NCBI GenBank assembly: GCA_903868115.1
Contig: CAIPUA010000088.1
Coordinates: forward strand, 1-34,819
DNA: 34,819 bases
Direction of reading: 5' to 3'
From: an uncultured Holophagaceae bacterium
GTDB taxonomy: Bacteria; Acidobacteriota; Holophagae; Holophagales; Holophagaceae
Shown: piece after piece, positions 1,071 to 26,527 of the stretch
Numbering within the stretch: position 1 is the first letter of the stretch
Layout of the letters: each line of letters opens with the position of its first letter
Program-made: the position numbers and the translations under genes
Notes under the pieces: generated by a model
What the model saw: the letters and a program-made list of their open reading frames with translations, nothing else
What the model was told of the DNA's origin: nothing
The model's database searches: none

Positions 1071-3368
1071 CTACTTCCAGTTGTAGGTCAGGCTCACGCC
1101 GAAGATGCGGCCGGGCTGGGAGTAGCGGGGGATGTAGGCATCGCCGGCAGAGGAGCCGCGGACATCCTCCCAACGCCAGTAGGTTTTGTTCAGCAGATTG
1201 AAGACGCCACCCTGAATGCGCCAGTCGCCCTTCCACTGGAAGGTAGCGAAGCTGATGAGGTCCAGCTTGGCGTAGCCGGGAGAAAGGAAGGGGTTGATGT
1301 AGTCGTTGGAGGGGTCCAGGGCCACATCGCCGGCCCGCTTGGCGGACACGACGGTCAGGGTGGCATCCGCACCCCAGCGCTCCCGCTGGTGGTAGCCGAT
1401 GCCCAGCGAGGCCCGCAGGGGGGCGACACTGTTGATGGGGGCCTTGGTGCGTTGGTCCTCGCCCTTGGCGTAGGCCAGGGAGAGGTTCGAGCGCCAACCC
1501 TGGAAGAAGACGCAGCCCGCCCGCACCTCGGCTCCCTGGATCAGGACGTCCTGGATGTTCTGATACTGGAAGGTATAGTCGATGCCCGAGGCGGGGTCGG
1601 GGCCCAGGTTCACATCCGTCATGAAGTTGCTGTAGCGATTCTGGAACACGGCGAGACCCAGGTTCCAGGAGTCCCCCTCGCCGCGGAGGCCGCCCTCATA
1701 GCTGCGGCTGCGCTCGGGCTTCAGGTCGGGGTTGGGGATGATGCGGTAGCCCGAGGCGAAGGAGGTGAGGGTCATGTTCGTGTAGTCATAGGGGGGGTTG
1801 CGGAAGCCCTGGGCGTACTGGGCATAGGCCGTCCACGTGGCGTCCAGCTTGCCGATGATGCCCAGCTTGGGGGTGACGGCGGTGTTGGAGATCGAGGCCG
1901 CCTCGGCGCCCAGCACGTTCCCCAGTTCGTAGACCGCGTCTGGGTGGGGAGTCAGGGTGTATTTATCGACGCGCAGGCCCGGCACGAAGGACCAAGTGCC
2001 GCTGGGGCTGAGGATCTCACCCTGGAGGAACAGGCCCTGGGTGCTGGTGGTGGAGTCGGGGATGAGCTTGGTGGGGTAGGATTGGCCCGCCACGATGTGG
2101 GTCATGACGCCGGTGTTGAAGGTGTACTGGCTGCGGTCGTAGGGCTCGGAGGTCTCGGTGCGGTTCAAGTCCAGGCCGAAGAGCAGGCGGTGGAACCAGT
2201 CCCCCACGGTAAAGCGGCGCTCGACCTGGGAGCGCAGGCCCCAAATCTTCTGGTCGAAGGTGTAGTCCGTGAAGCGGACCGTCTCCAGCATGGGCGTGAC
2301 GGTCCGCTTCTCGCGGAACTCGTCCGTGTGCTCCAGGCTGTTGGCGGTCTGGTAGAAGGCGCGCCATTCCACCCGCTGGAGGTAGGCTGAGTCGTCCTCG
2401 AAAATGTGCTCTACGCTGAACTGGTTGCGACGATTTCGGTCGCTGCCCTGGTCCTTGATGACGAAGGTGCCTGGCGTCATGAAGGCCGGGCCGACCAGGT
2501 TCAGCAGGTTGATCTCGTCCTTGCGCTCGAAGCCCTGGAAGCCTAGGCGCACCTGGTTGTGGCCGTTGGGTTTCCACCCCAGCTTGCCCAGCACGCTGGT
2601 GGAATTGACGGCCATGGGATTGGGTTGGCCGGCGGCAGGCGTGGTTTCATTTCCCACCCGGTAGGTGGTGGTGAGGATGCCGTCCCAGCTGCCCCGACGC
2701 CCGGCCACGATGGCCGTGGTGGACTTCTGGTTGTTGACGCTGGTGTAGCCAACCTTGAGGCGGCCCGCAAAACTGCCGCTGGCGCTGAGGATGTCTGCGG
2801 GGTCCAGGGTGGTGTAGGTCACCACCCCGGCCAGGGCGTCACTGCCATAGAGGGCGGAACCCGAACCGCGCAGGATCTCCACGCGCTTGAGGGTGTCCAG
2901 GTCCACGAAGTCCCGGCTGAGACCGCGGGAGGCCTCGGCGCCGTCCGGCAGGTTCACCCCGTCCACCAGGATCAGGACCCGGTTGCCGCCGATGCCGCGG
3001 ATGCTGAAGCTGGAGGCGCCCTGGCGGTCCGGCTGGTTGCCCACCTCCACACCCGGCTCATTGCGGGTGAGATCGATGATGTTGGTTACCAGCTGTCGCT
3101 CGATCTCCTTGTCCGTGGTCACGGTGACGGTGGTGGTGGTGTCCTTCTCCGCGCGCTCCGTGCGGGTGGCGGAGACCATCACCACCGCCGAAGGGACATC
3201 CTCCTTCTTGGGCTTCTTGGCCTTCTCCTCGGCCTTCCTGGCTTTGTCATCAGCCTGCTTGGTGGCCGGAGCCACCTGCTGCGGAGGCTCTGCGGCTCGC
3301 AACCGGGTGCCGGTGAGCACCAGGGCCAAGCCAGAAAGCAGGATGGGGAGGGAGAAGGGTGGGCGCAT
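1071..3368 (-). CDS. TonB-dependent outer-membrane receptor, haem/haemoglobin-receptor-like
   Basis: About 765 residues. The start at 3368 is chosen because it begins a clear signal peptide (MRPPFSLPILLSGLALVLTG...RAAEP); the longer frame upstream has no such signal. A Lys/Ala/Glu-rich segment (about residues 35-60) is followed by a TonB-box-like stretch (VVMVSATRTER) and a plug domain (about 60-180, with SIRGIGGNRVLILVDGV and RVEILRGSGSALYGSDALAG). The rest fits a 22-strand beta-barrel ending GVSLTYNWK, with the aromatic near-terminal residue expected of outer-membrane proteins. A GFRNPP...IPNPDLKPE box resembles the FRAP/NPDL region of haem receptors, so haem or haemoglobin is the likeliest ligand, but vitamin B12 or a siderophore cannot be excluded. 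It stands alone between a dead gene and cheY, with no TonB or ABC partner visible. Confidence 0.88.
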   Translation of the reverse strand: MRPPFSLPILLSGLALVLTGTRLRAAEPPQQVAPATKQADDKARKAEEKAKKPKKEDVPSAVVMVSATRTERAEKDTTTTVTVTTDKEIERQLVTNIIDLTRNEPGVEVGNQPDRQGASSFSIRGIGGNRVLILVDGVNLPDGAEASRGLSRDFVDLDTLKRVEILRGSGSALYGSDALAGVVTYTTLDPADILSASGSFAGRLKVGYTSVNNQKSTTAIVAGRRGSWDGILTTTYRVGNETTPAAGQPNPMAVNSTSVLGKLGWKPNGHNQVRLGFQGFERKDEINLLNLVGPAFMTPGTFVIKDQGSDRNRRNQFSVEHIFEDDSAYLQRVEWRAFYQTANSLEHTDEFREKRTVTPMLETVRFTDYTFDQKIWGLRSQVERRFTVGDWFHRLLFGLDLNRTETSEPYDRSQYTFNTGVMTHIVAGQSYPTKLIPDSTTSTQGLFLQGEILSPSGTWSFVPGLRVDKYTLTPHPDAVYELGNVLGAEAASISNTAVTPKLGIIGKLDATWTAYAQYAQGFRNPPYDYTNMTLTSFASGYRIIPNPDLKPERSRSYEGGLRGEGDSWNLGLAVFQNRYSNFMTDVNLGPDPASGIDYTFQYQNIQDVLIQGAEVRAGCVFFQGWRSNLSLAYAKGEDQRTKAPINSVAPLRASLGIGYHQRERWGADATLTVVSAKRAGDVALDPSNDYINPFLSPGYAKLDLISFATFQWKGDWRIQGGVFNLLNKTYWRWEDVRGSSAGDAYIPRYSQPGRIFGVSLTYNWK

Positions 3369-3541
3369 GGATCTCTCGGAGCAGGATGTGGAAGGTCGGG
3401 GGCACGCTAAGGAAGATCTTACTGCCCTCCGTGTTCCCCGCACCCTTGCAACCCTCTCGGTATCGGCTGCGCCGATTGACGAGACAAACTGAAATTTCGC
3501 GTGCCCTGTATTTTTGAGAACGGGGTTGGAGTGGAATGGGC

Positions 3542-3922
3542 CTAGAAGAAATCACCCAGGCACGCGGCCATCTTGGCGGCCAGATCATCGGGCGCGAAGG
3601 GCTTGACTAGATAGTTGGCGGCCCCGTCGTGGATGAAGTCCAGGATGCGGGTGCGTTCGGATTCCGTGGTCAGCATCATGACGGGGATGGACTGGAAGCG
3701 CGGGTCCTTCTTCATGGCCAGCAGCGTTTCGCCGCCGTCCATCTCGGGCATGTTCACATCCAGCACCACCAGGGCGATATCCGCGTATTCCTTTTCCAAC
3801 ACCGCCAGAGCCTCCCGCCCATTGGCGGCCTCCAGGATCTCCATGCCGAGCGTGGCGACGACGCGCCCCACGATCCGGCGCATGGTGGCGGAATCATCGA
3901 CGGACAGAATCTTGTTGGCCAT
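3542..3922 (-). CDS. cheY: CheY-type single-domain response regulator
   Basis: A 126-residue receiver domain with nothing attached. The acidic pair is D9/D10, the phosphoacceptor is D55 in VVLDVNMPEMDG, the switch threonine is T85 in MMLTTES, and the conserved lysine is K107 in YLVKPF. It should accept phosphate from a CheA kinase and signal to a motor or other effector; no CheA lies in the window. It is the third gene of cheB-cheR-cheY, starting 10 bases after the cheR stop, so translation is probably coupled. The MANKILSVDDSATMRRIV start is typical of chemotaxis CheY proteins. Whether it acts on flagella, type IV pili or a non-motility output cannot be told from sequence. Confidence 0.92.
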   Translation of the reverse strand: MANKILSVDDSATMRRIVGRVVATLGMEILEAANGREALAVLEKEYADIALVVLDVNMPEMDGGETLLAMKKDPRFQSIPVMMLTTESERTRILDFIHDGAANYLVKPFAPDDLAAKMAACLGDFF

Positions 3923-3932
3923 GATGTCCCCC

Positions 3933-4781
3933 CTAGCCGATCCGGCTGCGATAGTAGGTTCCCGACCCGTGGGACCGAGGTTCGAAGAGGTCCGGGGCGT
4001 TCTGGAGATTCTCTACGGCGCTGGTGAAAAAGTAGCCGCCCTGAGTGGTCAACCGGGCGATGCCCTCGAAGATCTGGCGCTTGAAGGCATCCGAAAAATA
4101 GATCGTGACGTAGCGACAGAAGACGATATCGAAACGGCCCAGGGAATCAGGCGCGTCCTGGAGATTGAACTTGCGCAGGGTCACCATTTTTTTCACGGCA
4201 TCATCTAGCACCCAGACCTGGCCATCCTGCCGGAAATAGCGGGCCCGAAAATCATCGGGCATGCCCCGACCCAGGGCAGAGGAATCGTAGCGGGCCGCAC
4301 GCGCCAGGAACAGCGCGGAGGGGGAAATGTCCGAGGCCACGATCTCGAACTGATCCGGCCGCAGTCCCGGATGCTCCCGGCAGTATTCCTGGATGGTCAT
4401 CGCAATGGAGTACGGCTCCTGGCCCGTGGAACTGGCCGCGGACCAGATGCGGATGCGGAAGCGAGCACCCGACAGCAGGTGGGCGCAGAACTCCGGCAGC
4501 ATGACTTCCCGCAGGATCTGAAAGGGATGTCCATCACGGAACCAGAGCGTTTCATTCGTGGTCATGGCATCCACGATCTTGTCCCGCAGCGCTGTGCCCG
4601 TTTCTGCCGAAGCTAAACGGTAGAACGCCCCGTAGTCCGCGCTGCCCGTTTCCGCCAGCAGTCCGGCCAGCCGGGTTTCGATCAGATAGGCCTTTTCCTC
4701 GCCCAGCAGGATGCCGCAGTTCTTTTCGATGTAGTCCCGCATGAGTTTGAACTCATTCGGTTGGATGGTTTCATTCGCCAT
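3933..4781 (-). CDS. cheR: Chemoreceptor glutamate methyltransferase CheR
   Basis: 282 residues, the usual CheR length. The N-terminal all-helical domain (about 1-80) contains GILLGEEKAYLIETRL and the TTNETLWFRD motif. The Rossmann-like SAM domain follows with IWSAASSTGQEPYSIAM as the cofactor loop and FDIVFCRYVTIYF near the C-terminus. The enzyme transfers methyl groups from SAM to receptor glutamates in chemosensory adaptation, opposing CheB. The canonical CRNVLIYF motif reads CRYVTIYF here, an Asn-to-Tyr change in a well-conserved stretch. The gene overlaps the end of cheB by 11 bases and precedes cheY by 10 bases, so the three form one translationally coupled unit. No receptor gene is in the window. 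Confidence 0.93.
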   Translation of the reverse strand: MANETIQPNEFKLMRDYIEKNCGILLGEEKAYLIETRLAGLLAETGSADYGAFYRLASAETGTALRDKIVDAMTTNETLWFRDGHPFQILREVMLPEFCAHLLSGARFRIRIWSAASSTGQEPYSIAMTIQEYCREHPGLRPDQFEIVASDISPSALFLARAARYDSSALGRGMPDDFRARYFRQDGQVWVLDDAVKKMVTLRKFNLQDAPDSLGRFDIVFCRYVTIYFSDAFKRQIFEGIARLTTQGGYFFTSAVENLQNAPDLFEPRSHGSGTYYRSRIG

Positions 4782-5913
4782 GTCGCCTTCCTCGTGAGGC
4801 CAGTTGGTTCACACGGTAGCCCAGGGCGGCCAGAGGCACCCGCTCATCAGAAAGGCCCGCCTCGTCCACCGCCAGTGGCATGCCATAGACCACACAACTG
4901 TCAGCGCCCTGAGAAAGGCAGTAGCAGCCACGCCGTTTCATGGCGCGCACCCCCTCACGGCCATCGTTCCCCATGCCCGTCATGATCACGGAGAGCATGC
5001 CACCGTCAAATTGGGCGGCGATGGAACGGAACAGGACATCCACCGAGGGGCGGCAACTGTTTTCCGGTGGGTTCTCATTGAGGCCCACGATCAGGGCCTC
5101 GGGTTCCGTATCGGTGGCCGGTCGCCGGCGGACAACCATGTGCCGACCCCCTGGCGCGATGTAGACCCTGCCGGAACGAATGGTTTCGCCTTCCGAGGCC
5201 TCGCAGACTTCGAGCTTGGAGCGCTTATCCAGGTGCTCCGCCAGGGAGGCCGTGAAGCCCGCCGGCATGTGCTGAACCAGCAGGATGGGCAAAGGGAAAT
5301 CGGCTGGTAGCCCGGGGATGAATTCGCCCAGCGCATTCGGACCGCCGGTGGAAACCCCCACACCAAGGACTTCGAAGCGCAGGGGCAAGGGCGCGGTGTG
5401 GGCCGTCGCGGCGAGGCGCGGAGGCGCCGGTGCCGGCGGCGGGGTTGCCGTCACCTTGGGGGTGGAACTGGATGGGGCCGGAGCCTCGGCGCGAAGATTG
5501 TGGCGCATGCGGACATGGCGCAGGAGCGGCTTCAGGGTCTCCTTGAGTTCCCGGCGGCTGGCTTCGGGATCGTTGCCTTCGGGCTTGCGGACGAAATCCA
5601 GGGCGCCCTGCGCCAAGGCCTGGATGGTGGCTTCGGCAGCCCGGGCGTTCTGCCCACTGATCATCACCACCGAGATGTCCGGATAGAGTCTGCGGATGTG
5701 GCTCAGAGTCTCCAGACCATCCATCTCAGGCATTTCGAGATCCAAGAGCACCAGATCCACCGGCCCCTGCTCGAGGCGCGCCAAGGCCAGCCGTCCCTGA
5801 GGCGCCGTGGCCACCACCTCCGCATCGCCGAGGCCCTCGATGACATCCGAAAGGATGCGGCGGTAGGTCACGGTGTCATCCACCACCATGACGCGAAGGG
5901 GATCGAGACTCAT
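4771..5913 (-). CDS. cheB: Chemotaxis response regulator / protein-glutamate methylesterase CheB
   Basis: 380 residues with the standard two-domain layout. Residues 1-140 form a receiver (acidic pair D12/D13, phosphoacceptor D58 in LLDLEMPEMDG, K110). A Pro/Ala-rich linker spans about 142-178. The C-terminal esterase domain carries the catalytic triad: S188 in GVSTGGP, H215 in QHMP, and an Asp in MTGMGNDG near residue 310. It removes receptor methyl groups and can deamidate glutamines, with activity raised by CheA-dependent phosphorylation. It is the first gene of cheB-cheR-cheY. Its upstream region (5914-6081) is shared with the divergent CheR-like cassette, so the two units could be co-regulated. 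The linker is longer and more proline-rich than in enteric CheB. Confidence 0.95.
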   Translation of the reverse strand: MSLDPLRVMVVDDTVTYRRILSDVIEGLGDAEVVATAPQGRLALARLEQGPVDLVLLDLEMPEMDGLETLSHIRRLYPDISVVMISGQNARAAEATIQALAQGALDFVRKPEGNDPEASRRELKETLKPLLRHVRMRHNLRAEAPAPSSSTPKVTATPPPAPAPPRLAATAHTAPLPLRFEVLGVGVSTGGPNALGEFIPGLPADFPLPILLVQHMPAGFTASLAEHLDKRSKLEVCEASEGETIRSGRVYIAPGGRHMVVRRRPATDTEPEALIVGLNENPPENSCRPSVDVLFRSIAAQFDGGMLSVIMTGMGNDGREGVRAMKRRGCYCLSQGADSCVVYGMPLAVDEAGLSDERVPLAALGYRVNQLASRGRRHGE

Positions 5914-6081
5914 CTTGAATTCCTTAGCGCATTCGTCGTTCGATATTCGTGATCGGCCTGAGATAAGTCTAACTCAAATATGAGAACACAATTCGACATT
6001 TCCACCTTCGTGTCTTTGATCTGGGCAGAATGGTATGGGGTCACTTGTTCCATTTCCCCCCACCGAAAGCAGAGCCGAAGC

Positions 6082-6696
6082 ATGGCCTACACTTCCTTTT
6101 TCAGGGATACCGACGCCTTGAATGCCATTGGCGACATCGCCGTACCGGCCCTGGCTCATTGGCGGGCGATTCGCGTCTGGGATGCCGGGTGTGCCACCGG
6201 CGAAGAACCCTTCACCCTGGCCATTCTTTTTGCCTCCAAACTGCGACCTTTCCCCTTCCGCAATCTCGACATTCTGGCGACCGACTACGAAGAGAGTAGC
6301 TTCCCGCAATTCGCCGACCAGATCCGCCTCGGCCGTTACAGCCGCAAGGATATTTTCTGGGTGCCCCAGGAGCCACGGGACCTCTACTTCGAGCCCACCG
6401 AAGACCCGGAAGTGTTCCAGCTCACGCAGCACATCCGGGATCGCGTCCGCTACATCCAGCACGATCTCCTGACGCTGGTACCGCCGGAAACGGGGCAGTC
6501 ACTCATCGTCTGCAAGAATGTGCTGATGCATTTCACGCCCGAATATCAGATCAAAGTTCTCGAAATGTTCCACCAGTCCCTCGCCCCTGGAGGCTTCCTG
6601 GCGCTGGATGGGAACCAGGCCATGCCCGAGGTGTTTGCAAGCCGTTTCGTGCGCCTGGAACCCGGCGCCCCGCTCTTCCAGAAGCCGACGGATTGA
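6082..6696 (+). CDS. CheR-like SAM-dependent methyltransferase lacking the CheR N-terminal domain
   Basis: 204 residues. The frame is also open from an ATG at 5980, but MAYTSFFRD at 6082 matches how I recall members of this short CheR-like group beginning, and the stretch before it does not look like protein. Motifs are VWDAGCATGEEPFTLAI (SAM loop), LATDYEES (acidic loop), IQHDLLTL and LIVCKNVLMHF, the counterpart of CheR's CRNVLIYF. The N-terminal helical receptor-binding domain of CheR is missing, so its substrate may not be an MCP. It heads a tightly packed four-gene run (methyltransferase, MBL hydrolase, HDAC-like, GNAT-like) and faces away from cheB across about 170 bases. The methyltransferase call is solid; the substrate is unknown. 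Confidence 0.82.
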   Translation: MAYTSFFRDTDALNAIGDIAVPALAHWRAIRVWDAGCATGEEPFTLAILFASKLRPFPFRNLDILATDYEESSFPQFADQIRLGRYSRKDIFWVPQEPRDLYFEPTEDPEVFQLTQHIRDRVRYIQHDLLTLVPPETGQSLIVCKNVLMHFTPEYQIKVLEMFHQSLAPGGFLALDGNQAMPEVFASRFVRLEPGAPLFQKPTD

Positions 6697-6699
6697 GCC

Positions 6700-7317
6700 A
6701 TGCGTGTCATCCCACTGCATCGAGAGGACCCCTCCGACTATTCCTGCATTGCCTACTGGGTGCTGGGTGAGAACAACACGCCCTCGGATCGCAATACGCT
6801 CATCGATACGGCCAGCACCGATCCCGAAAATCTGGCCTTTTTCCTGCGAGAAATGGTCCTGCAGCCTAAAGGCATCGGGAAGAAGGCCGTGGAACAGGTC
6901 ATCCTGACCCATAGTCATTTCGATCACTCGGGCGGCGTGCCAGGCATCGACGAGCACTTCCATCCGGCCACCTATTCCTGGCTTCCAGCGGGCAGATCTC
7001 ATAAAAAAACCCGGGACGGCATGTCGCTGACCGTGGGCGACCAGAGCGCCACCCTGTTACACACGCCGGGTCATTCGGAAGATTCCATGTGCGTGTTTCT
7101 TCCCGAGACCGGCACCCTGTTTTCCGGCGATACCCTGTACCGCATCACGGACCATCTCGGGGCCTATCCCAAAGCCTATCTGGATACGCTGGAACGCTTG
7201 GCCCAACTCGATATCCGCACCATCTTGCCCGGCCATGGTCATGCCATCACGCAGGACGCTCTCGCGTTCATCCGTGTGTGTCTGGGCAATGTGCGCCAGT
7301 CCCTTCTGCACGATTGA
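6700..7317 (+). CDS. Metallo-beta-lactamase-fold hydrolase
   Basis: 205 residues. The metal-binding HSHFDH motif is at residues 71-76, followed by a second histidine in LLHTPGHSEDS, an Asp in LFSGDTLY and a final His in LPGHGHAI. This is the full set expected for a dinuclear-metal hydrolase of the glyoxalase II-like superfamily, with no signal peptide. The ATG lies three bases after the stop of the CheR-like gene, with little ribosome site of its own, which argues for translational coupling. Glyoxalase II-like thioesterase activity would fit beside acyl-transfer and deacylation enzymes, but that is inference. The N-terminal MRVIPLHREDP...YWVLGE stretch is family-typical. Confidence 0.85.
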   Translation: MRVIPLHREDPSDYSCIAYWVLGENNTPSDRNTLIDTASTDPENLAFFLREMVLQPKGIGKKAVEQVILTHSHFDHSGGVPGIDEHFHPATYSWLPAGRSHKKTRDGMSLTVGDQSATLLHTPGHSEDSMCVFLPETGTLFSGDTLYRITDHLGAYPKAYLDTLERLAQLDIRTILPGHGHAITQDALAFIRVCLGNVRQSLLHD

Positions 7318-7324
7318 ACACTCG

Positions 7325-8086
7325 ATGAAACTGGTCTACGACGAACGGTTCCGCGATTCCCGGTACGCCGAGGACAATGCCGCCATGCCGGGTCGGATCG
7401 AGGCCGCAATGAGCGGACTCATGCAGAGCCCGTGGGATCGCGTCGCACCGGTCCCGGCCACGGTGGAACAGCTGCTGCTCGCGCATGACGCAACGTATGT
7501 CGAGCGAGTCGCGGCAGACAAACCACGCTTCGCCATGGCAAGCCTAGCCGTCGGCGGTGCCATTCTGGCGGCCCGCCTGGCGCACGGCGGAGATCCCGCC
7601 TTCGCATGTGTCCGGCCTCCAGGACATCACGCCGCACGCGAGGAAGCCTGGGGGCATTGCACCTTCAACAATGTCGCCCTCGCGCTGCTCGTCATGCGCG
7701 CTGAGAAACGCATCGACCGCGCCTTCGTCATCGATATCGACGCCCACACCGGGGATGGCACGCGCAAGGTGCTCGCTCCCTGGCCCGAGGCTGAGGTCTT
7801 CAATCCCTTCGCGCCCGATGCCAGGGAATATCTGGAACTCGTTGAATCGAAGTTGTCCGCCATCCAGCGTACCGATATCGTGGCCGTCTCGGCCGGCTTC
7901 GACGCCTATCGGCTCGATGTTGGCCACAAGCTTGATACCCCCGATTTCGAGCGGATCGGCACGCTTGTTCGCGTGGCATCCAAGCGTCTGTGCCGCGGGC
8001 GGCGTTTCGCCGTGCTCGAAGGTGGCTACTACCTGCAAGACCTGGGGGCCAATGTGCTCGCCTTTTGCCGGGGGTTCGCGGGATGA
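7325..8086 (+). CDS. Histone deacetylase / acetylpolyamine amidohydrolase-fold protein
   Basis: 253 residues from the ATG at 7325, seven bases after the previous stop. Earlier in-frame starts lie inside the MBL gene. The arginase-deacetylase fold is recognised by RPPGHHA (tandem catalytic histidines H101/H102), FNNVALAL, DIDAHTGDGT (zinc ligands D139 and H141), SAGFDAY (third zinc ligand D193) and EGGYYLQDL, which carries the transition-state tyrosine. The usual DxHHGNG reads DAHTGDG, so the second His is Thr; zinc ligands are kept. At ~250 residues it is shorter than the 300-370 of most class II deacetylases. It probably removes acetyl or other acyl groups from a lysine or amine. Its stop overlaps the start of the next gene, a GNAT-like acetyltransferase, suggesting opposing acylation and deacylation. 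Confidence 0.87.
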   Translation: MKLVYDERFRDSRYAEDNAAMPGRIEAAMSGLMQSPWDRVAPVPATVEQLLLAHDATYVERVAADKPRFAMASLAVGGAILAARLAHGGDPAFACVRPPGHHAAREEAWGHCTFNNVALALLVMRAEKRIDRAFVIDIDAHTGDGTRKVLAPWPEAEVFNPFAPDAREYLELVESKLSAIQRTDIVAVSAGFDAYRLDVGHKLDTPDFERIGTLVRVASKRLCRGRRFAVLEGGYYLQDLGANVLAFCRGFAG

Positions 8087-8448
8087 CGGTGCTCATCGGA
8101 CTGGATCTAGCGTTGATTCAACAGCCGCGCGCCGCGGAACTCGGCGACTACGACTGGTTCGATATCGAACGGGCGGGCACCCAGGTGGGCAAGACGCGCT
8201 GCCGCATCGAGCCGGATCGGTTCACCGTCTTCTCGATCATGGTCTACCCCGAGTACGAGGGACACGGCTACGCGCGGGCCGTCATCGACCATTTCAAGCG
8301 TGAATACCCGCTGATCATCGCCGACCGCGTCCGGTTCACGGCGCGCGCCTTCTGGATCAAGGTCGGCTTTGCCCCGGAAACCATCGACAGATATGTCTGG
8401 CGCAGGGAAGAAGGCACGGTGGCACTTCGGCTAGATCCCGCCCCGTAG
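8083..8448 (+). CDS. Small GNAT-like N-acetyltransferase
   Basis: 121 residues, beginning in an ATGA overlap with the stop of the HDAC-like gene. The acetyl-CoA pyrophosphate loop is visible as IMVYPEYEGHGYAR (residues 52-65, fitting V-x-P-x-Y-x-G-x-G-x-A), followed by a helix and the ARAFWIKVGF segment typical of GNAT motif B. It is short for a GNAT protein, with a minimal N-terminal region. With the preceding deacetylase-fold enzyme it makes a candidate writer/eraser pair. The last 18 bases overlap the 3' end of truB on the opposite strand. Fold assignment is good; the acceptor is unknown. Confidence 0.72.
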   Translation: MTVLIGLDLALIQQPRAAELGDYDWFDIERAGTQVGKTRCRIEPDRFTVFSIMVYPEYEGHGYARAVIDHFKREYPLIIADRVRFTARAFWIKVGFAPETIDRYVWRREEGTVALRLDPAP

Positions 8449-9336
8449 ATTAGCTGCGGTCCGGAGCCGCCCGTTCTGCTCGTGCAGCAGAGCCACCAAG
8501 TGCTCCCCATGGATTCCCCGAAGCGGGGCACCGGGATCGGGGAAGCCCTCGGGCAGCAACACCGTCGCAGCCTGGAACTCGCCCAGGGGAATGGCCCGAC
8601 CATGCGCCAGGTGATCGGCTTCTTCGTCCGAAAGGATCCGCGAGATGCACCAGGGAATCAGGGCCGCGCCCTGGAGAAGGAGTTTCTGGCCCGCCCCGGG
8701 ATCCAGCCAGGGACCGATGGCCGTGCGCTGGAGCCGCCCCAGGTGGGCGCCGCAGCCGAGCCTTTGCCCCAGGTCCCGGGCCAGGCTGCGCACATAGAAA
8801 CCGCCGCGACAGGTGATGCGGAGGGTGCTGGACCGCGGCAGATCGTGGGCGACCCACGAGGCCTCGTGCAGGTAGACCCGGCTGGGCGGCAGCACGACTT
8901 CCTCGCCTCGATGGGCCTTCTTGTAGGCGGCCTCGCCGCCGATCTTCTTGGCGCTGGTAGCTGGAGGAATCTGATCCCGCCAGCCGAGAAAGGCCGACAG
9001 CGCCGCATCCAGGACCTCTGGTGTGAGAACTGCCGGATCGCCTTCGCGCACCGGCTTCCCCAGGTGATCGCAGGTATCCGTTTCCACGCCCCAAACCACC
9101 TTGGCCTCGTAGGTCTTCGGCAGCGGGTGCATCAATTCCATCAGCCGCGTGGCCTGCCCGGAGAGCACCAGCAGCAGACCTTCCGCAAAGGGATCCAGGG
9201 TTCCACCGTGGCCCAGCGCCCACTTCCTCTGTCCGGCCTCATAGGCCGCATGTTTGAAGCGCCGCACCACATCGAAGCTGCTCTCGCCCACCAATTTATG
9301 GACGAGGAAAACGCCCGGCTCAACCGGCCCGTTCAT
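8431..9336 (-). CDS. truB: tRNA pseudouridine-55 synthase TruB
   Basis: About 301 residues. It makes pseudouridine at position 55 in the T-loop of tRNAs. Motifs: FLVHKLVGESSFDVVRRF at the N-terminus, GHGGTLDPFAEGLLLVL with catalytic D48, the motif II region KTYEAKVVWGVETDTCD, and RGGFYVRSLARDLG. The C-terminal ~60 residues fit a reduced PUA-like domain. The start at 9336 (MNGPVEPGVFLVHK) matches family N-termini and places catalytic Asp at 48; an in-frame ATG at 9354 inside the end of rbfA is an alternative. rbfA-truB is a common pairing in translation/ribosome-maturation operons. The 3' end overlaps the GNAT-like gene by 18 bases tail to tail. Confidence 0.95.
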   Translation of the reverse strand: MNGPVEPGVFLVHKLVGESSFDVVRRFKHAAYEAGQRKWALGHGGTLDPFAEGLLLVLSGQATRLMELMHPLPKTYEAKVVWGVETDTCDHLGKPVREGDPAVLTPEVLDAALSAFLGWRDQIPPATSAKKIGGEAAYKKAHRGEEVVLPPSRVYLHEASWVAHDLPRSSTLRITCRGGFYVRSLARDLGQRLGCGAHLGRLQRTAIGPWLDPGAGQKLLLQGAALIPWCISRILSDEEADHLAHGRAIPLGEFQAATVLLPEGFPDPGAPLRGIHGEHLVALLHEQNGRLRTAANLRGGI

Positions 9337-9343
9337 CCCCGAT

Positions 9344-9736
9344 TCAGTTCCCATTTTCCGATTCCGGCACGGCATCTGACTCTGGAGGTCGCGCCGCGCG
9401 TTCCTGCTCAAGCTCCGCGAACAGCGTTTCCATCTTGTTGCCCTGTTCCAGCGTGGTGTCGAGGAAGAAGCGCAACTCGGGCGCCTTCTTCAAGCGCAAA
9501 CGCTGGGCCAGTTGGGTGCGAAGAAAGCCCGTGCCCCGGGCCAGGGCCTTGGCGCTCTTCTCCTGCTGCGCCTCCTCGCCCAGCACGGTGTAGTAGACCT
9601 TGGCGATGCCGCGGTCCCCGGTCATGCGCACGGCGGTGAGCGTGAGGAACCCGAGATCGGGGTCGCGGAGCTCGCGCTGAATCAAGGTGGAGAGAAGGAA
9701 ATGGACCTGATCTTCGAGTTTTTCTGGGCGGAGCAT
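9344..9736 (-). CDS. rbfA: Ribosome-binding factor A
   Basis: 130 residues from the ATG at 9736 (MLRPEKLEDQVHFLL...), the typical start position for RbfA; longer frames upstream have no ribosome site and run into the divergent promoter. Family features are ELRDPDLGFLTLTAVRMTGD, AKVYYTVLG and the C-terminal AQRLRLKKAPELRFFLDTTLEQGNK split over about 80-105, carrying the KH-like fold with the RYxPEL-like element as KAPELRF. It acts in maturation of the 30S subunit around the 5' region of 16S rRNA. It precedes truB with the two genes abutting or overlapping, and is divergent from the methyltransferase gene at 9792 with only 55 bases between starts. Confidence 0.93.
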   Translation of the reverse strand: MLRPEKLEDQVHFLLSTLIQRELRDPDLGFLTLTAVRMTGDRGIAKVYYTVLGEEAQQEKSAKALARGTGFLRTQLAQRLRLKKAPELRFFLDTTLEQGNKMETLFAELEQERAARPPESDAVPESENGN

Positions 9737-10576: not shown

Positions 10577-11773
10577 ATGGGATTCAGGACTCTCAAGGAG
10601 TTGGAGATCGGAGGACATCGCGTGTTCCTGCGCGCGGACCTCAATGTGCCCATCAAGGAAGGCGTGATCAAGGACGCCACCCGCATCCGCGAGACCCTAC
10701 CCACGCTCAAGCATCTGCTGGAAGGCGGTGCCTCGGTGGTGATGTGCAGCCACATGGGCCGTCCCGAGGGAATCGGCTTCGAGCAGGCCTACAGCATGGC
10801 TCCCGTGGCGAAGTGGCTGCAGGAAAACGGTATCGATACCAAGCTGGCCAGCGGGATCATCGGCGAGGCCGTGGAAGCCGAGGCCAAGGCTCTGAAACCA
10901 GGTCAGGTGTTGCTTCTCGAGAACCTCCGCTTCGATAAGGGCGAAACCAAGAATAAGCCCGAATTCTGTGAGGCACTGGCCCGTCTCGCCGATACCTATG
11001 TGAACGACGCCTTCGGCAGCGCCCATCGCGCCCACGCCTCTGTTTCAGGCATGGTCCCTCATTTCCCCAAGGACCGCACGGCTGCGGGTTTCTTGATGGA
11101 AAAAGAGTTAAAGGCGCTGGGCAAAGTGCTCCATCACGCCGAGAAGCCCCTGGTCGCCGTCATGGGCGGCGCCAAGGTCTCCGACAAGATCGACCTCATC
11201 AAGCGGTTCCTCGGCATGGCCGACGCCATCCTCATCGGCGGCGCCATGAGCTACACGCTGCTGAAGGCCCAGGGCATCACCATCGGGAAGAGCCTCTGCG
11301 AAGAGGACAAGCTGGAAATGGCCAAGGCACTGCTGCTGGAAGCCAAGGCCAAGGGCACCCGCCTCGTGCTGCCCCTGGACCATGTGGTGGCCTCCGAGAT
11401 CAAGCCCGAAGCCGAATGCGCCATCACCCAGGATCAGGCCATTCCCGACGACAAGATGGGCCTGGATATCGGACCCGAAGCCGTGGCCGCCTTCGCCCAG
11501 GAGATCCGCGCCGCCAAGACCATCGTCTGGAACGGCCCCATGGGCGTCTTCGAGATGGATTGCTTCGCGGCGGGGACACTCGCCATCGCCGACGAAATGG
11601 CCGACGCCGCGGACAAGGGCTGCTTCGTGGTGGTGGGCGGCGGCGATAGCGTGAGCGCCGCCAACAAAGCGGGCGTGACGGCCCGCATGAGCCATGTCTC
11701 CACGGGCGGCGGTGCCAGCCTGGAATTCCTAAGCGGCCTGGAACTGCCCGGCGTCGCGGCACTTTCGATTTGA
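10577..11773 (+). CDS. pgk: Phosphoglycerate kinase
   Basis: 398 residues, normal length. It interconverts 1,3-bisphosphoglycerate plus ADP with 3-phosphoglycerate plus ATP in glycolysis and gluconeogenesis. The start at 10577 follows a GGAGG ribosome site at 10568-10572 and gives the usual N-terminus ending VFLRADLNVPI. Also visible are SHMGRPEG, LLLENLRFDKGE, VNDAFGSAHRAHAS, AVMGGAKVSDKI, the KTIVWNGPMGVFE segment and the C-terminal VVVGGGDSVSAANKAG nucleotide region ending in a STGGGASLEFL motif. An upstream in-frame ATG overlapping the methyltransferase gene lacks support. tpiA follows after 13 bases, forming a glycolytic pair. Confidence 0.97.
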   Translation: MGFRTLKELEIGGHRVFLRADLNVPIKEGVIKDATRIRETLPTLKHLLEGGASVVMCSHMGRPEGIGFEQAYSMAPVAKWLQENGIDTKLASGIIGEAVEAEAKALKPGQVLLLENLRFDKGETKNKPEFCEALARLADTYVNDAFGSAHRAHASVSGMVPHFPKDRTAAGFLMEKELKALGKVLHHAEKPLVAVMGGAKVSDKIDLIKRFLGMADAILIGGAMSYTLLKAQGITIGKSLCEEDKLEMAKALLLEAKAKGTRLVLPLDHVVASEIKPEAECAITQDQAIPDDKMGLDIGPEAVAAFAQEIRAAKTIVWNGPMGVFEMDCFAAGTLAIADEMADAADKGCFVVVGGGDSVSAANKAGVTARMSHVSTGGGASLEFLSGLELPGVAALSI

Positions 11774-11786
11774 AGCAGAGGCTCCC

Positions 11787-12530
11787 ATGAAGATCGTCAT
11801 CGCCAACTGGAAGATGAACATGCTGGGCCGGGAGGCGGCGGCCTTCTGCGAGGCCTTCAAGGCCGACTATACACCCAAGGCTGGCTGTGAAGCGGGCATC
11901 GCGCCGCCCTTCACGCTGCTGCGCGAGGTGGCAGTTCATGCGGCGGGCAGCGGGGTTAAGGTCTTCGCTCAGAACGCCTACTTCGAGCCCAAAGGCGCCT
12001 TCACGGGCGAGATTTCCATGGGCCAATTGAAGGATGCAGGCTGTCATGGCGTGCTGTTGGGCCATAGCGAGCGGCGCCATGTCTTCGGCGAGAGCGACGA
12101 GAACCTGGTCAAGAAACTGAAGGCCGCCTGGGAATACGAACTCCTGCCGGTGCTCTGCATCGGCGAAACCCTGACCCAGCGCGACGCGGGCTTCACCCTG
12201 GATGTGCTGCATAAGCAGCTTGAGGTGCTGAATGCGACCGGACCCGGGCCCCTGGTCCTGGCCTATGAACCCGTCTGGGCCATCGGCACCGGTCGGGTGG
12301 CCGAACCCATGCAGATCGAGGAGGTCCACGCCTTCATCCATGACGAACTCTGGCGCCTCTGGAGTGACCGCGGCCTCGAGGTTCCCATCCAGTACGGGGG
12401 CAGCGTGACGCCCGATAATTTCGAGGGAATCCTAAAGGTCCCCTTCGTTGCGGGTGGCCTCGTAGGCGGCGCCAGCCTGGATCCCGCGAAGTTCCTGAAA
12501 CTTGTGGGACAGACCCAGGCCAGCCTCTGA
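11787..12530 (+). CDS. tpiA: Triose-phosphate isomerase
   Basis: 247 residues, standard length. It interconverts dihydroxyacetone phosphate and glyceraldehyde 3-phosphate. Active-site residues are all present: N7 and K9 in IANWKMN, H93 in LLGHSERR, and E161 in AYEPVWAIGTG. The phosphate-binding loops are YGGSVTPDN and the C-terminal GGLVGGASLDPAKF. The gene starts 13 bases after pgk and is presumably co-transcribed. A long hairpin of unusual polarity lies just downstream (12562-12600). Confidence 0.98.
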   Translation: MKIVIANWKMNMLGREAAAFCEAFKADYTPKAGCEAGIAPPFTLLREVAVHAAGSGVKVFAQNAYFEPKGAFTGEISMGQLKDAGCHGVLLGHSERRHVFGESDENLVKKLKAAWEYELLPVLCIGETLTQRDAGFTLDVLHKQLEVLNATGPGPLVLAYEPVWAIGTGRVAEPMQIEEVHAFIHDELWRLWSDRGLEVPIQYGGSVTPDNFEGILKVPFVAGGLVGGASLDPAKFLKLVGQTQASL

Positions 12531-17156: not shown

Positions 17157-17378
17157 GGTCCGAATCCGGCGCATCACAACATGAAACTTGGTGGCCCCAC
17201 AGGGATTCGAACCCTCCGTCCCGCCGCGCGGATGGCTGCGCCCGGATCTGTGGCTTCGCCGCACCGCGCGGAACGCATGCGTCCCGCGCTGATCCTTGCG
17301 GCGCGCCCCCGCGATCCAGGGTCCGAATCCCGGCGCCGAAAGCTTCTTCTTTGGTGGCCCCACAGGGATTCGAACCCT
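17157..17378. repeat. 163-bp-offset direct repeat containing the tRNA-Ile 3' end
   Basis: A 28-base segment is present exactly at 17188-17215 and 17351-17378. In the second copy it is the CCA end, acceptor strand and T-arm of the tRNA-Ile gene. A second block (GGTCCGAATCC[C]GGCGC) occurs at 17157-17172 and 17320-17336, again 163 bases apart, so the repeat unit extends beyond the tRNA. The first copy lacks the tRNA 5' half. Between the copies lies a GC-rich, ORF-free stretch with a 24-bp near-palindrome at 17266-17289 (one mismatched pair around a perfect ACGCATGCGT). This looks like an attachment-site scar or a partial tandem duplication. Confidence 0.75.
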
Positions 17379-17427
17379 GGACCAAGCGGTTATGAGCCGC
17401 CAGCTCTGACCGCTGAGCTATAGGGCC
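17352..17427 (-). tRNA. tRNA-Ile2 (anticodon CAU)
   Basis: 76 bases on the minus strand, with CCA encoded. The cloverleaf reads cleanly: acceptor GGCCCTA with TGGGGCC (one G-U pair), D-arm AGCTCAGCGGTCAGAGCT, anticodon stem GCGG/CCGC around loop CTCATAA, and T-arm CAGGGTTCGAATCCCTG. The CAU anticodon with a GGCCC acceptor and CTCATAA loop matches tRNA-Ile2 of E. coli far better than elongator or initiator Met. The wobble C would be modified to lysidine by TilS to read AUA codons. A TAGAAT (17434-17439) lies just upstream but is very close to the mature 5' end. Confidence 0.93.
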
Positions 17428-26451: not shown

Positions 26452-26527
26452 GGGGCTGTAGCTCAGTTGGGAGAGCGCTGCAATCGCACTGCAGAGGTCG
26501 TCAGTTCGATCCTGATCAGCTCCACCA
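26452..26527 (+). tRNA. tRNA-Ala (anticodon CGC)
   Basis: 76 bases with CCA encoded. Acceptor GGGGCTG pairs with CAGCTCC (one G-U). The D-arm is AGCTCAGTTGGGAGAGC, the anticodon stem CTGCA/TGCAG surrounds loop ATCGCAC with anticodon CGC, and the T-arm is GTCAG-TTCGATC-CTGAT. The GGGGCTRTAGCTCAG start is typical of alanine tRNAs. It reads GCG codons. A promoter precedes it and a terminator follows, so it is a single-gene unit. It marks the left edge of an accessory-looking region. Confidence 0.93.

Follow-up and report, generated by a model that had tools for sequence, protein, structure and literature searches.

In Bacillus, the acuABC genes encode a GNAT acetyltransferase (AcuA) side by side with a zinc-dependent deacetylase of the HDAC fold (AcuC) in one operon, and the gene of their known target, acsA, a metabolic enzyme, lies next to this operon and is divergently transcribed (PMC13121692). 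Lysine acetylation is also known from chemotaxis proteins: in E. coli, CheY is deacetylated by CobB, an NAD-dependent sirtuin, and the deacetylase changes chemotaxis (PMC2883070). Similarly, in Azorhizobium caulinodans, deletion of the zinc-dependent HDAC-type deacetylase AZC_0414 affects chemotaxis, as does acetylation of CheY1; the passages of that study on the enzyme liken it to HDAC4/7 and to the larger HDAH type and mention no paired GNAT (PMC9927263). Our search of open-licence papers returned no specific account of HDAC/GNAT genes with chemosensory clusters. CobB is not known to have its gene among the che genes. If an array came with its own modifying enzymes, the regulatory role of chemotaxis-protein acetylation could be tested directly.

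The window, i.e. the whole 34,819-nt contig CAIPUA010000088.1 of an uncultured Holophagaceae bacterium, belongs to a Holophagaceae-type metagenome-assembled genome (MAG; 93.65% complete, 419 contigs) and carries four consecutive genes on the plus strand. They encode a CheR-type SAM methyltransferase, here CheRl (6082..6696, 204 aa; Pfam CheR 5.5e-33, no CheR_N), an MBL-fold hydrolase (6700..7317, 205 aa; Lactamase_B 1.5e-25), an HDAC-fold deacylase (7325..8086, 253 aa; Hist_deacetyl 2.4e-36) and a minimal GNAT-fold protein (8083..8448, 121 aa; Acetyltransf_7 3.4e-6). According to the ORF coordinates, 3 bp separate CheRl from MBL and 7 bp MBL from HDAC, and HDAC and GNAT share an ATGA overlap; family alignments favour the starts at 6082 (CheRl) and 7325 (HDAC) over longer ORFs. 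Across a divergent intergenic region of 168 bp (5914..6081, from the ORF coordinates) lie, on the minus strand, cheB for a receptor methylesterase with a receiver domain (4771..5913; CheB_methylest 1.2e-60), a full-length receptor methyltransferase gene, cheR (3933..4781; CheR 1.1e-43 and CheR_N 3.7e-9), and a cheY-like single receiver domain (3542..3922; Response_reg 6.3e-24). The downstream neighbour of the cassette is truB (8431-9411, minus strand). ORF coordinates and Pfam matches thus confirmed the genes, positions, spacings, orientation and divergence from cheB-cheR-cheY described in an earlier note on this DNA, together with its domain assignments for all four products. Scanning 5700-8700, including the 168-bp divergent region, gave no match to a sigma-70-like promoter or a terminator, and a single transcript is therefore argued for by spacing and conservation only. 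Several genera of Holophagaceae and two spirochaetes show the same four-gene order, which is therefore not due to chance. Elsewhere in the window, a TonB-dependent-receptor-like ORF lies downstream of cheY (1071-3443, minus strand), and an Rfam scan of the window returned two tRNA genes (17355-17427, minus strand; 26452-26524, plus strand) and nothing else.

By its Pfam match, invariant residues and arginase-deacetylase fold, the HDAC-fold protein is a member of the Hist_deacetyl superfamily. All residues of the zinc site and of catalysis (H101, H102, D137, D139, H141, D193 and Y235) were invariant in 25/25 aligned sequences, upholding the complete set of zinc ligands read from the sequence earlier, and an AlphaFold2 model (pLDDT 95) matched PDB entry 5ji5 best (TMq 0.87) and lies close to class II HDACs. 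The family is compact (∼253 aa versus 305 or more in generic bacterial HDACs), and its active-site segment from DxDxH to GFD spans 52 residues (51 in one member) versus mostly 79-87 in the controls, i.e. it is 27 residues shorter than in generic bacterial HDACs (typically 79), where it includes the loop completing the substrate tunnel. Judging from the alignments, this deletion should open the active site. The tunnel position holds H in 20 of the 30 family HDACs, versus F in those controls that could be scored. In a phylogenetic tree, the cassette HDACs formed one clade with 100/100 support, apart from generic bacterial HDACs and divided into three subclades (Holophagaceae plus spirochaetes; betaproteobacteria; Latescibacterota). 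Given the short segment and the separate clade, we rejected an assignment to the generic bacterial HDAC, HDAH or AcuC type, and an NCBIfam search gave no match for the cassette HDAC. The acetylpolyamine amidohydrolase/HDAC10 type was rejected as well, since the column after D198 holds V, L, Q, R or W, never E; this column aligns with the leucine of HDAC6 that corresponds to the gatekeeper Glu of HDAC10, which confers polyamine specificity. The cassette further differs from AcuA/AcuC in having no AcuB-type protein and a much smaller GNAT. Such a compact HDAC clade would be defined as an object for the study of open active sites.

Scanning genome contigs with the HDAC alignment yielded 23 full-length loci of at least 41% identity and then, after an abrupt drop, generic HDACs of at most 35%. 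Independent searches in five taxon sets, with the GNAT as seed, brought up more loci, with an HDAC gene adjacent in each. Among 31 fully read loci, a count that omits the fragment L008 and four Holophagaceae loci found later that share the four-gene order (L143-L146), the HDAC and GNAT genes were adjacent in 29; the exceptions, L040 and L042, are both divergent family members. HDAC-GNAT loci were found in Acidobacteriota, Spirochaetota, Latescibacterota, Ignavibacteriota, Bacillota and betaproteobacteria, and the HDAC family also in UBP16; the Bacillota member is a MAG, as are all named records behind L021-L043. The gene order therefore extends beyond close relatives into several phyla and so passes the synteny test set in the earlier note. 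HDAC and GNAT distance matrices correlated strongly (r = 0.93, permuted maximum 0.49), which demonstrates co-inheritance and not interaction. Adjacency and co-inheritance of GNAT and HDAC genes are thus both found, as in an AcuA/AcuC-like pair, and support the predicted writer/eraser pairing that the note had suggested.

CheRl and MBL genes occur together in Holophagaceae, in the spirochaetes L027 and L124 and in Latescibacterota (L029), and in L126 CheRl lies beside CheW at a contig end. Two Holophagaceae loci (L141 and L142) contain CheRl-MBL with no HDAC or GNAT match in 12 kb, and betaproteobacterial and other loci contain HDAC-GNAT without CheRl-MBL. The cassette therefore consists of two separable modules, CheRl-MBL and HDAC-GNAT, which also occur apart, and we rejected the four genes as a conserved unit: of the single unit proposed earlier, the order and spacings stand and the unity does not. 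Frequencies in the GNAT-seeded searches were low (5/347 in Acidobacteriota, 4/247 in the spirochaete phylum, 2/197 in the class of G052, and 2/399 and 2/300 in the overlapping sets for the orders of G055 and G057), and the patchy spread within Holophagaceae suggests gain and loss or transfer. Plasmids contained only distant HDACs (<60% identity). Viral contigs gave no HDAC match, and a phage origin is therefore not supported. One relative (G003) has a transposase-like ORF, identified by reading, ∼0.5 kb from the GNAT end (L112:454-1575, plus strand), which is possibly relevant to patchiness. A MAG under the name Sandaracinus (Myxococcota) has an HDAC (L032:7800-8570) that falls inside the betaproteobacterial clade, reflecting either transfer or a binning error, and the record JAIFMW010000078.1 (L025), titled Deltaproteobacteria, carries the same cassette as G003:C77 of the window's genus, so that its name is probably wrong.

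Chemosensory genes, counted as MCP, CheA, CheW, CheR, CheB or CheD in flanks of ∼8 kb, were present near 14 of the 23 HDAC-seeded loci versus 2 of 57 generic-HDAC loci (Fisher p = 5e-8), where both sets come from one scan, contig ends hide some neighbours in each and members of one clade do not count as independent loci. This linkage, which bears out the chemosensory connection drawn in the earlier note, was seen in all three HDAC subclades and in several phyla. In the betaproteobacterial locus L108, for example, the genes run CheY-STAS-CheA-MCP-CheW-CheR-CheD-CheB and are followed first by that of a PAS/GGDEF/EAL protein and next by HDAC-GNAT; CheA and MCP lie directly downstream of the cassette genes in L027; and 16 kb of L132 (genome G024) hold CheR-CheB, the four cassette genes, a poly-HAMP MCP, CheW and CheA. 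CheRl-MBL lies within a complete cheA-cheW-MCP-CheRl-mbl-cheB-cheR-cheY operon in L141/L142, exemplified by L142, where STAS, CheA, CheW, MCP, CheRl, MBL, CheB, CheR and CheY follow one another on one strand and CheRl and MBL overlap. The window's cheB and cheR products are 67% and 63-66% identical, respectively, to those of this operon. CheB was found in 25/25 genomes searched versus 6/14 control genomes. About one-third of the loci (e.g. L033, L035, L037, L043 and L128) show no chemosensory gene in view, in some cases owing to contig ends. Taken together, the four enzymes very probably belong to chemosensory systems.

Most nearby typed receptors were 4HB chemoreceptors with tandem HAMP_2 domains, of the architecture 4HB-HAMP-(HAMP_2)2-7 and followed by MCPsignal unless this was lost to a contig end or fragment (Pfam). 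HAMP_2 matches on cassette contigs extended this receptor type to L021, L029, L032 and G024; the exception was L038, whose receptor fragment shows only a CZB domain. HAMP_2 proteins were found in 0/14 control genomes, in 23/347 Acidobacteriota and in 4/5 GNAT-bearing Acidobacteriota (p = 7e-5), in three of these four within 5 kb of the GNAT gene. Poly-HAMP receptors also occur without either module, and the modules are therefore accessory. Several loci have the receptor and lack cheBRY, which led us to reject cheBRY as the specific partner; of the association proposed earlier, the chemosensory link remains, with the poly-HAMP system in place of cheBRY. The window's own 93.65% complete genome gave nine MCP matches and no HAMP_2, so that either the MAG lacks its poly-HAMP receptor or the lineage uses another receptor. 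Overall, the note's grouping of the genes holds, and the system proves both broader and more modular than had been guessed there. That the modules travel with one type of chemosensory system suggests a second tuning layer for bacterial sensing, and their repeated occurrence in different phyla allows natural with/without comparisons between relatives in which this receptor type is accompanied by both modules, by a single one or by neither.

Alongside the observed gene order, conserved catalytic residues, HDAC monophyly and chemosensory linkage, we infer the substrates, the directions, the link to acetyl-CoA and the effect on signalling, and the activities are predicted. HDAC-GNAT and CheRl-MBL would serve a dedicated chemosensory system, usually one with a 4HB/poly-HAMP MCP as its receptor, as accessory modules for protein modification. 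The GNAT protein would acylate lysines of an array protein (receptor, CheW or CheY), most likely by acetyl transfer from acetyl-CoA, and the HDAC-fold enzyme, whose active site is predicted to be unusually open, would remove the acyl group again. Together, the two modules would supplement the ordinary CheR/CheB cycle with a metabolic or slow form of adaptation and give poly-HAMP receptor systems adaptation beyond it. The case for acylation of array proteins comes by analogy from the AcuA/AcuC design, from acetylation and deacetylation of CheY in E. coli and from the zinc deacetylase of Azorhizobium, even though CobB is a sirtuin and the cassette enzyme has the HDAC fold. We put the probability that HDAC-GNAT reversibly acylates chemosensory proteins at roughly one in two.

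The GNAT-like protein might instead bind acetyl-CoA as a sensor and in this way control the HDAC or the array, with the HDAC erasing acetylation that arises non-enzymatically or is written otherwise, as CobB does on CheY. This minimal GNAT may lack catalytic activity: family members have only ∼105-121 aa, and in the AlphaFold2 model (pLDDT 91) no helices separate the first strands from the core, whereas such helices usually form the acceptor site of a GNAT. Among the 50 PDB matches listed, the top TM-scores were those of 4cry/4crz, structures of PanZ, an acetyl-CoA-dependent partner of PanD and likewise a small GNAT fold of similar size. These TM-scores are modest (0.62-0.66), however, identity to PanZ is only ∼8-10%, no panD was noticed among the neighbouring genes, and the conserved motifs would also suit a catalyst, namely the (V/I)ADRVR signature, strongly conserved in an alignment of 23, and the pyrophosphate loop of the Q/RxxGxG/A type, though the loop varies, reading QxxGxG or A in many members and ExxGxA in the window protein. 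We consider a sensor less likely, yet a serious alternative, and reversible acylation of chemosensory proteins remains our preferred reading.

The genomic linkage itself fits protein targets and a small-molecule ligand alike, and HDAC-GNAT might produce or degrade a ligand of the receptor, either a small amine or another metabolite, e.g. N-acetylated polyamines, given that acetylpolyamine amidohydrolases and HDAC10 share the HDAC fold and are among the sequence relatives. Against this, the HDAC10 gatekeeper position is never E, transport or amine metabolism genes do not recur at the loci, and the partner genes are cytoplasmic signalling genes; the small amine or polyamine substrates of the earlier note found no positive evidence, and we judge such a role improbable, more so than the sensor. 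The patchy distribution, the transposase-like ORF in one relative and the loci without chemosensory genes in view could also mean that these are small mobile enzymes which ended up in signalling islands without a functional tie to their chemosensory neighbours. This is hard to reconcile with linkage to the same receptor type in each of the three HDAC subclades and across several phyla, or with CheRl-MBL lying co-directionally and with an overlapping start inside a complete operon, and is the least likely of these explanations.

For the CheRl-MBL module, the comparison is with CheR/CheB adaptation. CheRl shares the catalytic fold of CheR, and its gene lies near cheB, cheR and receptor genes. 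It differs in that it consists of the SAM domain only, without the N-terminal receptor-binding domain CheR_N (Pfam), reads CKNVLMH at the catalytic motif CRNVxIY of CheR (alignment with two full CheRs), has an MBL partner and occurs in addition to a normal cheR and cheB. Its nearest solved structures are CheRs, aligned only from around residue 69 on. In the MBL-fold hydrolase, the HxHxDH motif and the further H, D and H form a dinuclear site whose seven ligands (H71, H73, D75, H76, H125, D144 and H179) are invariant in the alignments, so that the metal site recognised earlier is complete. The nearest solved structures are mixed (LACTB2, PqsE and glyoxalase II) and point to no single reaction; a thioesterase role, previously considered, gained no positive evidence. 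The truncated CheR would methylate a second site, and the MBL enzyme would hydrolyse a bond in the CheRl pathway, possibly the methyl ester, the latter being a guess from symmetry. That there are two extra writer/eraser cycles, a CheRl/MBL methyl ester outside the CheR/CheB sites and GNAT/HDAC lysine acetylation, is doubtful; if true, one poly-HAMP receptor system would be tuned by both marks and by acetyl-CoA.

Further genes were seen beside these systems. G024 contains a second cheR-cheB pair (L111:10606-12590, minus strand) next to the cheY-cheR beside the cassette. In the Acidobacteriota genome G120, HDAC-GNAT (L128:8506-9596, plus strand), with no chemosensory match in 19 kb, has a probable Ser/Thr kinase gene, identified by reading, just upstream. 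The PAS/GGDEF/EAL protein between cheB and HDAC-GNAT (L108:2154-5591, minus strand) suggests a c-di-GMP link in betaproteobacteria. Ahead of cheA, L142 encodes a STAS protein and, by reading, a possible anti-sigma-type ATPase (11290-11984, minus strand); STAS likewise precedes cheA in L108, making a partner-switching input to poly-HAMP systems possible.
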